Assembly: GCA_017938425.1 (NCBI GenBank)
Contig: JAGBBQ010000124.1
Coordinates: 1 to 40,841 of the forward strand
Origin: Clostridia bacterium
GTDB lineage: Bacteria; Bacillota; Clostridia; Oscillospirales; CAG-272
Reading direction: 5' to 3'
DNA length: 40,841 bases
Shown: positions 35,662 through 40,841 of the stretch, one piece after another
Position numbering within the stretch: the first letter of the stretch is position 1
Layout: each line of letters starts with the position of its first letter
Translations under genes and position numbers: made by a program
The notes under the pieces: model-generated
The model's input: the letters and a program-made list of their open reading frames with translations, nothing else
Told to the model about the DNA's origin: nothing
The model's database searches: none

Positions 35662-38600
35662 ATGAAATTGAAAAGGTTTATAGCGATGCTGCTGACGGTG
35701 ATCACCGTTTTAAATATAGTGCAGCCCTATTCCTTCCTTGCGCTCACCGAGAGCGTGATGAATGCTTCGGATGCGGGCAGCACGCCAAAGACGGAGGCGC
35801 CCGGCGAGACGGGCGGCGAGACCGACGAGGATTACGTCAAGGATATGGTATTCATTGATTGCGAGAGCGCCGTCGGTAACAGAGTCACGCTTAGGCCGGG
35901 GGAGACCCCCTTCGTTTTCGCCACGCTTGACGCATCGATCGAGGCCTCGGCTACCTACCGTTGGCAGTTTAAGATATCCGAGGACAGATGGGCATTTATC
36001 GACGGATACGTTTCTCCCTACGCTTTTCTGACGGCGGCTCTGGTCGCCAGCGCCACGCAGGAGGGCGGCAGCGCGTTCTTGCGCTGTATCGTTACGAGCA
36101 ACGGTCAAAAATACGCAAGCGAGGCGATGGAGCTCGTGCTGGCCGAGGATGCACCTCTGACGGCATTTGCGGCCTCTAAGGTGGCGCTGCTGCAGGATAG
36201 CGTCTCGGAGGCACAGACGCTTGCGGAGGATTCCTCCGGCGCATTCCAGCTTGTCATTGACTATAAATTCCGACACGCCAGTGCCGCAGAAACAACGCCG
36301 ATCGACGGCGAGACGGTGGCAAATACCTTTACCGTTACGATCCCGAACGGCGGCTACTATTCGGGAACCATTGCAAGCCCCTCCGAGATCGGATATCTGC
36401 CTTACGTCAAGGCGGGAGACGGCGATTGGGAGAAGAATTTCGTTATGGGCACGCCCGCAGAGAGCGATTATATCGAATACGACGGCCAAAGATACGTGCT
36501 CGCTCGCAGTATAGAGTTCTATAAGATATCCGAGGCAACCCATATCACCGTATATTACATTCCTCAGATGGTTGACTACATCGTCAAGTATCACGAGCAG
36601 AAGCTTTACAGCGACGAGTACGTCGTTGCCTCCACCGAGATCCGCTCCGCAAGAGCAAACGAGGCGGTCGGCGCCGGTCTGAATCAGAAGAGAAGGGGCT
36701 TCTACGCCAATCCCTACGAGGTGACCGAGTCGATCTCCGAGGACGGCTCGTACGTATTGGATATCTATTACGACAGGCTTTATTATCTGGTTGACTTCAA
36801 TACGGAGGATAACAACCACTACGTTCGCTACAATACGCAGATCATGCTTCCTTCTCCGTATCTTAAGGGCTACGCCTTTGAGAGCTGGCGCTTGCACGCG
36901 GTAACGGACGAGGACGGTGCGGACGTTTCCTCGCACGGCTATGCCGCATCGGAGTCTGCCGGCGCGCTGATCACCGTGCAGTACAACCTGAGCTACACCG
37001 CGTCCTGGCAAGCGGCAACCACCTCTTATACGGTGGTATATTGGCTCGAGAATGCGGACGAGGCCGATACGTATGACGTCTGGTACACGCATAAGATGTC
37101 GGGAACCACCGGTGATAAGACGATTGCCGGTGCGGATAATATCTCGCAGTACATCACGCGCGACAACGGATATACGAGCGGCGAGGTGAATGACGTTGCC
37201 GCCACCTATCCTTATCTGATCTATAACAGCGACCGCACGGATAAGGAGCAAAAGGTCCTGCAGGGCGACGGAACCACGACGGTCAATATTTACTATGCAA
37301 GAAAAGAATATACCCTGAAGTTCTATTATGCGATAGAGAAGACGTCGGGCGCGAGCAGCACGTATCACGTGATCGGCGGCTCCACCTATTACTTCGGCGG
37401 CAACGCCGCCACGAGTGCAAGAGCCGATGCGAAGGCGGCGATGCGCCAATACGCCTCCGGAAGCTACGTGGGTCAGACGGGACAGGTCGAGGCGCTGCCG
37501 ACGCTGAATGAAAAGGGCGCCGCACGCACGGCCTACAGCGTATCCTTTGATACGGACAACAACAATAAGTACCATTATATATCGTTCTCGGCAAAATACG
37601 GCGCCGATATTACCGAGCTCTGGCCCTGCGACGTCTTCAACCCGGTGGAAAGAACGTCCAAAAACACGCACGGACAGTGGTCGGGCTCAAAGGCGTTCGT
37701 GAGTGCCTGGAACGGAGAATACCGCGTAAGATACACGCAGGATCCGTCGGTCAACAACGGAAACCAGACCATCAAGGGTAAATATACCCAGCTGGATGCC
37801 AACCTTCTCTGGAACAACCCCGCGAGCGTGAGCGAGACCACCGTTTCGTACGCTTGCTTCTGGGAGAACGGGGCGAACATCAACTGGAGCGTCCCCGAGC
37901 TTTACCGTTACAAGATATATCTTCCTCTCTTGCCGAACCAGGAGGTTCCCGAGGAGAAGAAGAGAACGTATAACGGCGTTACCTATTACCTTGCCGACGA
38001 GTACGATACCTGTGATGACTCGAGCACCTCGGCGCAGACCCAGCCCGGTCTCGTGGGCTTCACCTCGAACGGCCGCGATTGGAGGGCGATAAGCGAGTAC
38101 GATACCTCTCTGTACAGAGAAGCGTACGAAATGTATTTCTATTATTCGAGAAATATCTATTACCTTTCGTTCAACGATCAGCACGGCAATATCGTTAGGC
38201 TTTCGGTTCCTTACGATACGCCTCTGGACGATCACGAGGAGGCAGACCACGTGCCCGCATACCCCTCCGATTTCGAGGAGGGCGAGAGCGTGTTTGAGGG
38301 CTGGTATTACGATGAGGCCTGCACGAATCGGTTCAGCCACAGCGTCACGATGCCGGCGAAAAACATTCAGCTCTATGCGAATTGGCAGACCCTGTCCTAT
38401 ACCGTAAGCGTGTACTTTGATACGGAGAAGACGATCGCGCTCTGCGAAAACCAAACCGCTCTGTTCGGCACGCTTTTTGCCGAGCCTGATTACAGAGCGA
38501 TGCAGCAGCTGCTCGAGGAGTATAAGAATCAGCTCTTTATCGGATGGTATTATATGGATGGCGCGGAGGAAAAGCGCTTCGATTTCAATACCATGCTTAT

Positions 38601-40176
38601 CAAGAAGGATATGGAGATCTACGCCAGATGGACCTCCGAGGTCCTCGTTGATTTCCTGATCCGTTACGTCGTTATGGAGAACGGGGAATACGTGGACGTG
38701 GCAAAGCCGAGCGATGGTACCTCTCTGGTAGGATTTACGAAGACCTTCGTGCCTCTGACGGCCGCGGAGCTGTATCCGGCGTATCGGGAGGGCTATTTCC
38801 CCGAGGTGCGCTCGCACTCTATCACGATGAGCGTCAATGAGACCGAGAATACCTATCTATTCGTTTACAGTGTTTCGGAATCGATGACCTACAAGGTCAT
38901 TCATGAATTTGAAAGCAACAGCCTCAACCAATATCTTGGCACAAAGACCCTGACCGCTACGCTGTATTATACCCTTTCGGGTGAGTCGATCCAAGACACG
39001 GCGGCCTCTGTTTACGTGCTGTTCCGTGAGGGTATCAGCAAGAGCGTAATCATCCAGGCGGCAGAGCAGCAGGCGGGCAAAACGCTGGATGCCACACAGA
39101 GAGAGGAGCTCTGGAAGATCGTAACCAGTATGTCTCCCAGCAACTTCCAGCAAAAGCTGACGCTTACCACAAGCCAGGAGAACGTGATACACTTTGAATG
39201 GGAGATCCACCAGGACGGCGCCGTGCCGTATCAGACGGTCTACTATTATCAGGATTCCACGGGCGAATATATTCCGGACGATACGATCGTAATGAGCTCC
39301 GGCGCGGTCGGCACTGCGGTCAATGCGCACCTGCCTGCCGCCGGAGAATACGATACCAACGTATACAGCTTGAATACGGAGCTTTCGACGCTGGACGGCA
39401 CGCTTCCCGGGCTTTTCAATGCCGACGGCACGCTCTCCAAGGGCTTGATAATGCCTGTGTATTTTTCGCGTACGTCGTATCCGTATACCGTCCGCTTCTA
39501 TAAGAATGACACAACGCAGGAGCTGGCAGAGGCTGTTACAGGAACGGCGCTTTACGGCGCGCAGCTGAACGTGAGTGACTTCGCCGTGCATGTGGACGGC
39601 TATTATCTTTCCAACAGCGATCACTCGATCGTTGTGGGCAGCAACCCCGAAATGAACGTGCTCAAGTGCTTCTATTCCGGTCTCGGCGTTTATTATCGCT
39701 ATCAGATCATCGGCGCAGGCGCTGCCTTTGATTTTTATGCGGACGATAACGCAGAGGTAGGGCAGCAGCCGCAGGAGAACACGCTGACCGTCGCGACCGG
39801 ACATTTCGTAAAGCCGGACAGCTGGTATTACGAGGTTGACGATACGTCGGCGAGCGTTCCCGAGGCATGGCTCTCGCAGATCGACGCCAAGACCTTCAGC
39901 GTCCGCCCGGATGAGCCGCCGAAGGAATGGGCGGGTAAGACGGTATATATCTACGTTGAGATCCTGCCCGAAACGAGAAGGTTTGCGGTTACGAACGCCG
40001 CTGTGCTGGCGGATCCGCAGGCATTCATTTTCTACCTGAAGGGTAAGGAGGGAACGAATACCCAAAGCGTGGACGTTACCTTCGTTATCGTCGGAAACGA
40101 TTATATTGACGTTTGCGAGCTGCCCTACGGAGACTACACGATCTCTATGCTGGGCTGGTCCTGGCGATACGGATAG
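35662..40176 (+). CDS. Giant InlB/MucBP-like secreted surface protein, interrupted by an in-frame TAG
   Basis: 1504 codons. Signal peptide 1-28 (MKLKRFIAMLLTVITVLNIVQPYSF). The body is beta-rich with many InlB/MucBP-like modules: YYDRLYYLVDFNTEDNN, YTVVYWLENADEADTYDVW, VNIYYARKEYTLKFYYAIEK, FEGWYYDEACTNRF, IYARWTSE, TYKVIHEFES. A near-consensus AAAGGAGGTCACC precedes the ATG. No LPXTG or C-terminal membrane helix is seen. The frame stops at TAG (40174) in GWSWRYG, yet the same frame stays open for 54 more codons to TGA (40339-40341) with protein-like content (PTVQFRDQSIDFVTDSIS...). It probably is the large partner of the TasA-like proteins at the cell surface. Confidence 0.85.
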   Translation: MKLKRFIAMLLTVITVLNIVQPYSFLALTESVMNASDAGSTPKTEAPGETGGETDEDYVKDMVFIDCESAVGNRVTLRPGETPFVFATLDASIEASATYRWQFKISEDRWAFIDGYVSPYAFLTAALVASATQEGGSAFLRCIVTSNGQKYASEAMELVLAEDAPLTAFAASKVALLQDSVSEAQTLAEDSSGAFQLVIDYKFRHASAAETTPIDGETVANTFTVTIPNGGYYSGTIASPSEIGYLPYVKAGDGDWEKNFVMGTPAESDYIEYDGQRYVLARSIEFYKISEATHITVYYIPQMVDYIVKYHEQKLYSDEYVVASTEIRSARANEAVGAGLNQKRRGFYANPYEVTESISEDGSYVLDIYYDRLYYLVDFNTEDNNHYVRYNTQIMLPSPYLKGYAFESWRLHAVTDEDGADVSSHGYAASESAGALITVQYNLSYTASWQAATTSYTVVYWLENADEADTYDVWYTHKMSGTTGDKTIAGADNISQYITRDNGYTSGEVNDVAATYPYLIYNSDRTDKEQKVLQGDGTTTVNIYYARKEYTLKFYYAIEKTSGASSTYHVIGGSTYYFGGNAATSARADAKAAMRQYASGSYVGQTGQVEALPTLNEKGAARTAYSVSFDTDNNNKYHYISFSAKYGADITELWPCDVFNPVERTSKNTHGQWSGSKAFVSAWNGEYRVRYTQDPSVNNGNQTIKGKYTQLDANLLWNNPASVSETTVSYACFWENGANINWSVPELYRYKIYLPLLPNQEVPEEKKRTYNGVTYYLADEYDTCDDSSTSAQTQPGLVGFTSNGRDWRAISEYDTSLYREAYEMYFYYSRNIYYLSFNDQHGNIVRLSVPYDTPLDDHEEADHVPAYPSDFEEGESVFEGWYYDEACTNRFSHSVTMPAKNIQLYANWQTLSYTVSVYFDTEKTIALCENQTALFGTLFAEPDYRAMQQLLEEYKNQLFIGWYYMDGAEEKRFDFNTMLIKKDMEIYARWTSEVLVDFLIRYVVMENGEYVDVAKPSDGTSLVGFTKTFVPLTAAELYPAYREGYFPEVRSHSITMSVNETENTYLFVYSVSESMTYKVIHEFESNSLNQYLGTKTLTATLYYTLSGESIQDTAASVYVLFREGISKSVIIQAAEQQAGKTLDATQREELWKIVTSMSPSNFQQKLTLTTSQENVIHFEWEIHQDGAVPYQTVYYYQDSTGEYIPDDTIVMSSGAVGTAVNAHLPAAGEYDTNVYSLNTELSTLDGTLPGLFNADGTLSKGLIMPVYFSRTSYPYTVRFYKNDTTQELAEAVTGTALYGAQLNVSDFAVHVDGYYLSNSDHSIVVGSNPEMNVLKCFYSGLGVYYRYQIIGAGAAFDFYADDNAEVGQQPQENTLTVATGHFVKPDSWYYEVDDTSASVPEAWLSQIDAKTFSVRPDEPPKEWAGKTVYIYVEILPETRRFAVTNAAVLADPQAFIFYLKGKEGTNTQSVDVTFVIVGNDYIDVCELPYGDYTISMLGWSWRYG

Positions 40177-40341
40177 CCGACCGTGCAATTCCGCGATCAG
40201 AGCATTGATTTCGTCACGGATTCGATCTCGATCTCTCTGACAGAGGTAGGCGACGTGATCTTCAATTATCCCACCGCCCCGAACAATCAGTGGCTGACGG
40301 ATGAGACGGCGAAATACATCACGCTGACCCCCGCAAATTGA
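40177..40341 (+). pseudogene. In-frame 3' continuation of the giant gene behind the TAG
   Basis: 54 codons in the same frame with normal composition (PTVQFRDQSIDF..., SLTEVGDVIFNY..., WLTDETAKYITL...), ending TGA at 40339-40341. There is no start codon or ribosome site of its own. It is best read as the true C-terminus of the preceding protein, cut off by a nonsense change (for example GAG or CAG to TAG) or a sequencing error. Confidence 0.7.
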
Positions 40342-40379: not shown

Positions 40380-40414
40380 TTAGCGTGATACTCCAAGCGG
40401 AGTATTCACGCTAA
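40380..40414. repeat. Imperfect palindrome at the border of the hairpin array
   Basis: TTAGCGTGATACTCC, loop AAGC, then GGAGTATTCACGCTAA: 15 pairs with one bulged T. It could also terminate transcription weakly, but there is no T run behind it. Confidence 0.8.
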
Positions 40415-40416
40415 AC

Positions 40417-40514
40417 TATGATTGCCCTTGCTGGCAAGTTATGAGCGCCTACGGCGCGTGATGAGAGGTAAACCTCGTGATGAGAGGCTTCGCCTCGTTT
40501 GAGGTTAGATGGGC
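40417..40514 (+). repeat. 98-bp direct repeat, copy 1
   Basis: Matches 40620-40717 with one difference (T at 40432, G at 40635). The period is 203 bp. Confidence 0.92.
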
Positions 40515-40619
40515 AATCATATCATCACGTTTGGCCAAGCCAAACTCATCACATTGCGTAGCAATTCATCACGCCGACTTGTCGGCTCATCACTTTTAAC
40601 TCTTGCGAGTCAAAAAAGT

Positions 40620-40717
40620 TATGATTGCCCTTGCGGGCAAGTTATGAGCGCCTACGGCGCGTGATGAGAGGTAAACCTCGTGATGAGAGGCTTCGCCTCG
40701 TTTGAGGTTAGATGGGC
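40620..40717 (+). repeat. 98-bp direct repeat, copy 2
   Basis: Second copy. Its G at 40635 makes the first hairpin a perfect 6-bp stem (TTGCCC/GGGCAA). The flank after it (GGGCGAGTCTATCATA) no longer matches the outer-stem partner found after copy 1. Confidence 0.92.
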
Positions 40718-40841
40718 GAGTCTATCATACGCCTTGCGAGCCTAAAAGTCTTACGACTTTGGCGCGTTGCGCCCTGCTTCGGCTTTCACCGAAGCGCTCG
40801 CGGCGCAATCTGCGCTCGCGTGCTTGCAAGCGAGCTTGCAG

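Follow-up and report, generated by a model that had tools for sequence, protein, structure and literature searches.

A dispersed, two-sided hairpin array of gut Clostridia with links to IVP genes and the Gut-1 RNA

Introduction

The Gut-1 RNA (Rfam: RF01706) was rated in 2010 as a certain RNA, probably not cis-regulatory, and was found in human gut sequences only, according to the sections of the original report available to us (Weinberg et al. 2010, PMC2864571). In the literature that we searched, RF01706 is named in one paper only, from 2010 and without a function, and no paper joining Gut-1 to an intervening-sequence protein (IVP) was found. The intervening sequences (IVSs) of 23S rRNA that carry an IVP/S23 open reading frame (ORF) are structured inserts with complementary ends that encode a PF05635-type protein; the available parts of the source discuss them as selfish or mobile elements and treat the mechanism of the IVP as not settled (PMC4990558). 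A further comparison is offered by the REP, BIME, and REPIN sequences associated with RAYT proteins, which the accessible text of one study describes as numerous short palindromic sequences that share a conserved foot (GTAG or GTGG) on their 5′ side and lie between genes in both orientations (PMC6006769).

Here we analyze a stretch of 40,841 bases (hereafter the window), the contig C117 of a draft clostridial genome of 2.10 Mb in 132 contigs (68.6% complete), the 3′ end of which is formed by a block of small hairpins. A first-pass annotation, made from the sequence alone, had described these hairpins as an array of unrelated stems on constant linkers and set it apart from terminators, standard REP/BIME elements, and CRISPR arrays.

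Results

Anatomy of the hairpin block

The block and the gene in front of it comprise the following features, all given on the forward strand.

35662–40341, +: upstream host gene, an ORF to the in-frame TAG at 40174–40176, the same frame being reopened to the TGA at 40339–40341
40380–40414, +: 5′ end hairpin of 35 nt, TTAGCGTGATACTC...GAGTATTCACGCTAA, kept in family A (see below)
40417–40427, +: 5′ strand of the outer stem, TATGATTGCCC, an alternative to hairpin 1
40427–40496, +: left array of copy 1, four hairpins with the linkers GTTATGA (40438–40444), GTGATGA (40458–40464), and GTGATGA (40477–40483)
40511–40521, +: 3′ (closing) strand of the outer stem, GGGCAATCATA
40522–40593, +: right array, three hairpins framed by four TCATCAC (40522–40528, 40546–40552, 40566–40572, 40587–40593)
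40594–40617, +: centre hairpin (40599–40610) leading from the right array to the next left array, TTTTAACTCTTGCGAGTCAAAAAA
40618–40699, +: second left array (copy 2), in the order GTTATGA, hairpin, GTTATGA, hairpin, GTGATGA, hairpin, GTGATGA, hairpin
40700–40729, +: decayed closing strand of copy 2, GGGCGAGTC..., which no longer matches
40745–40840, +: five further hairpins reaching the contig end; on contig C94 a right array comes after the same run

The element begins with its 5′ hairpin, 39 nt behind the TGA at 40339–40341; this hairpin lies 5′ of the originally reported start and is nevertheless part of the element, being conserved in 40 aligned relatives. The host ORF itself encodes 1504 amino acids (35662–40176) up to its TAG, after which the frame is open for 54 further codons, and a nonsense change, an assembly error, and recoding are the alternatives for this stop codon.

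Within 40427–40610 we find the eight small hairpins previously counted, with stems of 4–7 bp and loops of 2–4 nt. The linkers had been called constant, which is true of the right side with its four TCATCAC and not of the left array of copy 1, where GTTATGA occurs once and GTGATGA twice. Counted on both strands, the window contains 15 matches to GTGATGA, of which 8 fall in the hairpin block; 3.33 would be expected, and none of 100 shuffles reached the observed count. The 11-bp stem, thought at first to close the whole of copy 1, pairs 40417–40427 with 40511–40521 and therefore encloses the left half only; this stem and the local hairpin 1 are mutually exclusive. The copies stand in tandem, so ordered that a right array faces the next left array, and copy 2 (40618–40699) consists of a left half only. 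In agreement with the first-pass annotation, the block is not a CRISPR array, given that variable self-complementary segments lie between the 7-nt words and there are no equal repeats or spacers of fixed length. As a k-turn/box C candidate, GTGATGA is identical to the box C consensus; an Rfam search of the window gave C/D-box snoRNA matches below threshold only.

A repeated family with shared ends

A DNA search of the draft genome returned 11 matches, two in the window and nine elsewhere, of which six have E ≤ 1.4e-9 (two each on C94 and C80, and one each on C25 and C31) and three are weaker (C94, C132, and C64); on C31 and C64 the word is GTTATGA/TCATAAC. In GTDB genomes, a specific pattern for the element occurs in at least 117 stretches, all from metagenome-assembled genomes labeled Clostridia, Clostridiales, Oscillospiraceae, or Eubacteriales with the exception of one labeled "uncultured bacterium". 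The search of related genomes suggested by the first-pass annotation was thus positive, and the block is not the single occurrence that a chance or local accident would have produced. A generic pattern (GTGATGA-N8-24-GTGATGA), searched in 146 genomes of the bacterial family, gave mostly chance-like matches in coding DNA as judged by eye, and hairpin-bearing matches alone were followed. The exact element pattern had no match in IMG/VR, and positions 40380–40620 of the window had none in the phage and plasmid collections.

Forty copies, which we call family A, align over about 355 bp (extent judged by eye) in the order 5′ hairpin, left array, closing strand, right array, terminator-like hairpin, end module, and end. 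The end module contains GGGCTTAGCCC and TTTG..CAAA hairpins, and the right end is TTCTCCGCTAAGAACATCACCCATT, the reverse complement of which resembles the 5′ end by eye. Several similar copies can lie at unrelated sites within one genome. In the isolate SIG626 we observed ten copies of one left-array element (L065, L087, L095, L104, L109, L120, L124, L128, L129), all in one genome, the left end (AAATTGCAATTTATGAG) being almost fixed and the right-hand modules variable.

Miniature inverted-repeat transposable elements (MITEs) are short, have many copies and inverted end likeness, and have coding relatives. Family A resembles them in its dispersed short copies with inverted terminal repeats (40 copies of about 355 bp, ends judged by eye); it differs in that the inner part is made of two opposed hairpin arrays, no target-site duplication (TSD) was read in three copies, and there is no known transposase. 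Neither a transposase nor a reverse transcriptase tied to the element was found. Both earlier suggestions of a miniature mobile element and of a structured RNA are compatible with these data.

Structure is conserved while stem sequences change

Folded as DNA, positions 40380–40841 are far more stable than expected (z = −10.2; 0 of 100 shuffles as low), and positions 40380–40530 folded as RNA give z = −5.75. For 40522–40700 the predicted RNA fold has −76.8 kcal/mol and pairs TCATCAC with GTGATGA or GTTATGA, the hairpins being side arms, so that the predicted structure is a linker-paired rod, a stack of four-way junctions.

In 42 distinct aligned copies, standard pairs fill 92.2% of 1329 cells versus 81.4% after shuffling, and both sides change in 21 of 34 pairs versus 10.7 in shuffles. 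On none of five measures of covariation did any of 500 shuffles of these copies reach the observed value, with the caveat that related sequences may beat such shuffles even without structure; when the partners are slid by 1 to 3 columns, pairing in the same copies falls to 27–39%. The pairs of the outer stem and helix 1 are invariant in this set and show no covariation because the copies were picked by an exact pattern spanning that stem. In other genomes the outer stem does vary, with ATCGCC opposite GGCGATCATA (L193) and ATTGGC opposite GCCAATCATA (L199) by eye. These results support the earlier proposal that structure, and not stem sequence, is kept in the family, and they count, like the conserved linkers, against the chance origin that the first-pass annotation had named as the alternative. 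In two loci (L123 and L165), one array hairpin is inserted into the loop of another.

Linker words are specific to each array

The same architecture with other words lies upstream of many PF05635 genes, for example gctaaat/atttagc, gtgatat/atatcac, atgatg/catcat, tgaagc/gcttca, and gtgaag/cttcac. The reverse complement of the commonest word of a region occurs at least twice in that same region in 24 of 38 loci, as compared with 104 of 1406 cross-locus comparisons; the words are array-specific and complementary within an array. Two elements behind tpiA illustrate this, their ends and terminator being similar and their words different: L108 has GTTATGA/TCATAAC (2 and 3 copies) and no GTGAAGT, and L364 has GTGAAGT/ACTTCAC (3 and 4 copies) and no GTTATGA. 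Such a pattern would suit selection on the complementarity of left and right words.

Copies are patchy at the 3′ ends of genes

Position was surveyed for 83 pattern matches in 80 of the 117 loci. Both neighbors were available for 64 matches; the arrangement is same-direction tandem in 23 of them, opposite-direction tandem in 14, convergent in 22, and divergent in 5; two others fall inside ORFs called by a simple script and 17 are without a neighbor. Arrays are seldom found in divergent gaps: in these loci, 6 of the 57 gaps holding at least two foot words are divergent, compared with 26 of the 85 that hold none (p 0.007; the 8 gaps with a single foot word were left out). The copies lie mostly at the 3′ ends of genes, a point that the first-pass annotation had proposed to check. 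In several cases (C80 and, by eye, L057 and L073) the array starts shortly 3′ of the T-run of a terminator.

At these 3′ ends the element is patchy. For hrcA, which has the C80 copy on its upstream side, the 400 nt upstream hold 0 or 1 foot words in 19 of 19 other loci of the genus that were read and 6 in the genome studied here (G000). For tpiA, 30 loci of the genus were fetched of the 63 genomes with a match, one of them (L372) having only 6 nt of flank, and two carry the element or part of it (L364 and L380, the latter truncated where its contig stops); the tpiA query L108, chosen for carrying the element, is not counted in the 30. A clean empty site was not found at hrcA or tpiA, as the loci do not have the gene beyond the element in common; in the case of hrcA, that gene was not found in the other loci of the genus. 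No TSD was read by eye at three similar copies in G081, and an 11-nt direct repeat, TAAGCGCGGTA, was seen by eye at L191. On C64 (L042), the last codons of the upstream gene are repeated in a hairpin that stands between the stop codon of this gene and the array (ATCGAATGGGAATAAGCC/GGCTTATTCCCATTCGAT).

The left half is built like the Gut-1 RNA

The design of the block is not wholly new. Like Gut-1, which has three variable stems on a constant 7-nt linker and comes from gut bacteria, the left half of the window block consists of variable stems on 7-nt linkers, and the two architectures align; the linker is GUGAAAU in Gut-1 and GTTATGA/GTGATGA in the window. Positions 40616–40689 score 16.5 bits against RF01706 (E 2.2), compared with a gathering cut-off of 50 bits, and there is no gathering-level match in the whole window, so that by the curated rule the window copy is not a Gut-1 member. 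Related arrays do pass: among 16 IVP loci scanned, RF01706 is above the cut-off on the arrays upstream of the IVP gene in L251, L258, L266, and L271 and below it in L262, L263, L264, L268, L257, and others, the right arrays being matched on the opposite strand. Gut-1 occurs in 102 of the 146 genomes of the bacterial family versus 2 of 249 across the phylum (the genome studied here and one other), with up to 29 matches per genome where 29 candidates were scored. Among the matches listed, at least nine PF05635 matches have a Gut-1 match 128–185 nt upstream on the same strand by eye, in the genomes G016, G026, G071, G081, G092, G107, G108, G112, and G135. Gut-1 as published is one half of this arrangement; the mirrored right half, the variety of words, and the IVP gene are absent from its description in the parts of the report available to us (PMC2864571).

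The arrays might then be a 3′ UTR element or stand-alone noncoding RNA of the Gut-1 type with a cellular role, such as protection of mRNA 3′ ends or termination, spread by ordinary duplication. The rating of Gut-1 as a certain RNA (PMC2864571), the terminator-like hairpin on the 3′ side of family A, the rarity of arrays in divergent gaps, and the compensatory changes in the stems speak for such an RNA. We consider it distinctly unlikely, however, given the patchy presence at gene 3′ ends, the occurrence of similar copies in unrelated places within a genome, the number of Gut-1 matches that a genome may hold, the conserved shared ends, and the IVP and cargo genes behind related arrays.

RAYT genes as a candidate partner

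A RAYT gene was the first candidate for a linked gene because the only Y1_Tnp (PF01797) gene of the genome adjoins the arrays on C94: it starts about 190 bp from an array block and is flanked by arrays of two linker words. Its protein resembles the REP-associated tyrosine transposase at 75.8 bits, below the 80-bit cut-off. The arrays could accordingly be REP/REPIN-like palindromes moved by a RAYT (Y1 HUH) transposase, with the linker acting as foot or guide and the hairpins recognized in single-stranded DNA. They share with REP/REPIN sequences the many short palindromes with a foot, the position between genes, and the occurrence in both orientations. They differ in that REP stems are conserved within a genome and the hairpin sequences within the window array are not, and in the foot, which is GTTATGA/GTGATGA and not GTAG or GTGG.

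Clusters of at least three hairpins somewhere in a locus proved not to be specific (10 of 31 loci in the RAYT set and 6 of 9 loci with an IS200-type TnpA), and we therefore used an inverted-word score, in which a 6-letter word is followed by its reverse complement upstream of the start, with at least two copies of each and a total of at least 6. As a general linked gene RAYT fails: 0 of 31 RAYT loci score 5 or more, a set that includes C94, whose arrays escape the score since their words are not the same on the left as on the right; three genomes rich in arrays (G060, G118, and G081) lack any PF01797 match at E ≤ 0.001; and 12 further RAYT genes, with 550 nt of flank on each side, have no such array. 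At L223, hairpin clusters lie about 800 nt upstream of the RAYT gene, beside an IVP gene.

We nonetheless keep movement by RAYT as a rival explanation because RAYT loci share an end module with IVP loci. This module is common to the IVP loci L262, L263, and L266 (altered in L264), the RAYT loci L207 and L226, in which it follows the RAYT gene, and the family-A array L132. No TSD was seen in the copies read, and movement as single-stranded DNA is expected to leave none. From their two stop codons on, L226 (RAYT) and L264 (IVP), from two species of one genus, share 549 nt at 78%, including a GNAT gene with 82% protein identity; it is as if RAYT and IVP genes could be exchanged before the shared GNAT module. 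On balance we think it unlikely that RAYT moves the arrays.

Arrays of this class are linked to IVP genes

The linked gene family, for which the first-pass annotation had proposed a search, is PF05635. The lead came from two array loci (L061 and L072) with a PF05635-related gene directly behind the array, and PF05635 is present in 88 of the 146 genomes of the bacterial family. At a score of at least 6, inverted words precede 23 of 38 IVP genes, 0 of 31 RAYT genes, and 1 of 152 other genes; the counts are 26, 0, and 6 at a score of at least 5 and 28, 4, and 21 at the laxest threshold of 4, a total that dinucleotide shuffles of the IVP regions reached in 116 of 1900 cases. The score asks for no hairpins, and at least three loci (L244, L278, and L279) pass with words in tandem and no hairpins in between; 15 of the 38 IVP loci are below 6. 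Many IVP genes without hairpin arrays (L243, L245, L250, L290, and others) are flanked by tandem short words such as taggagt or attagca, which in L245 are inverted on the other side. Outside the bacterial family, in the phylum sample, 0 of 25 readable IVP loci have arrays at a score of 6. Two IVP loci, L264 and L266, contain a hairpin much like the one at the 5′ end of the window family; L264 belongs to the window's own genus. No PF05635 gene was found inside the window element, and the sole PF05635 gene found in this genome lies away from it on contig C88, with tandem TTCACT-type words and no hairpin array of such a word upstream and hairpins with catcat and atgaag downstream.

The IVP protein is a four-helix bundle (TIGR02436) with the solved relatives 2rld and 2gsc. 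In 12 of 39 cases its gene ends in ATGA, reopening a frame of 7 to 203 codons, and the gene that follows differs from locus to locus (GNAT, S51 peptidase, AAA kinase-like, histidine phosphatase, cyclophilin, and others in 23 scanned). Of 39 IVP genes, 15 have a same-strand tRNA or tmRNA gene no more than 600 nt upstream, as compared with 0 of 31 RAYT and 2 of 174 other genes. The present arrays differ from IVS elements in that they sit at gene and tRNA 3′ ends, contain hairpin arrays, and, in the window copy, have no ORF. Outside the bacterial family, some fetched IVP genes do lie in 23S rRNA (RF02541), the classical IVS position (three loci: L293, L298, and L306), or in RNase P RNA (two loci: L300 and L303, from the phylum genomes G193 and G267), where RF00010, a model of 367 positions, is matched over 775 nt; the latter are apparently IVP inserts in a ribozyme gene.

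In some IVP loci (L258 and L269, by eye) the final word of the right array directly adjoins a −35-like box, as would be expected if the arrays were DNA operators whose words are bound near the IVP promoter by the IVP or another protein, their palindromic arrangement being of no consequence. We find this highly improbable, given that IVP-less copies keep the array although they have no IVP promoter and that whole word sets change between arrays with left/right complementarity kept, which pairing of word with word fits better than one binding protein.

Discussion

The window block belongs to a class of dispersed, structure-conserved, two-sided hairpin arrays that is linked to IVP genes. Its members prefer gene 3′ ends, and those with an IVP gene also prefer tRNA 3′ ends. 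The explanation that we favor, and consider reasonably probable, is that the block represents an IVP-less (MITE-like) member of a structured mobile-element family of gut Clostridia, present here as a tandem copy that has partly decayed. The complete element would consist of a strong 5′ hairpin, a left array of repeated linker and hairpin units, a closing strand, and a right array of hairpin and linker units, in which the linkers would be the reverse complement of those on the left. Its 3′ part would be a terminator-like hairpin with the end module in elements of the window type and, in those of the IVP type, a promoter-like sequence, the gene for the four-helix-bundle IVP, and often a small cargo gene. 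In a single strand, either RNA or single-stranded DNA during movement, left and right linkers may pair and the hairpins protrude as arms, giving a rod of four-way junctions to which the IVP would bind. The element would be copied into sites just behind transcription terminators, with IVP-less copies, presumably including that of the window, moving in trans. The class is best filed as joining two known kinds, the Gut-1 RNA and the IVP/IVS elements.

A wider proposal, which we put forward tentatively, is that Gut-1 may be half of the structured end of a mobile element, whose arrays would be held by a word that is fixed per array and switches in concert between homologous elements, selection acting on the complementarity of word with word and not on the word as such. 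The IVP would bind the rod, and IVP elements would insert beside RNA hairpins (terminators, rRNA, and RNase P RNA), carry small cargo genes, and yield IVP-less miniatures like that of the window; together they could constitute a new class of structure-guided mobile element.

The occurrence of Gut-1-type arrays upstream of IVP genes gives a first lead on the puzzling Gut-1 RNA family. If the link holds, the puzzles of Gut-1 and of the IVP are one, that of a structured element and its protein partner common in gut Clostridia, and binding and movement become directly testable. Should linker words indeed switch in concert, this would be an unusual case of coevolution within a nucleic acid.
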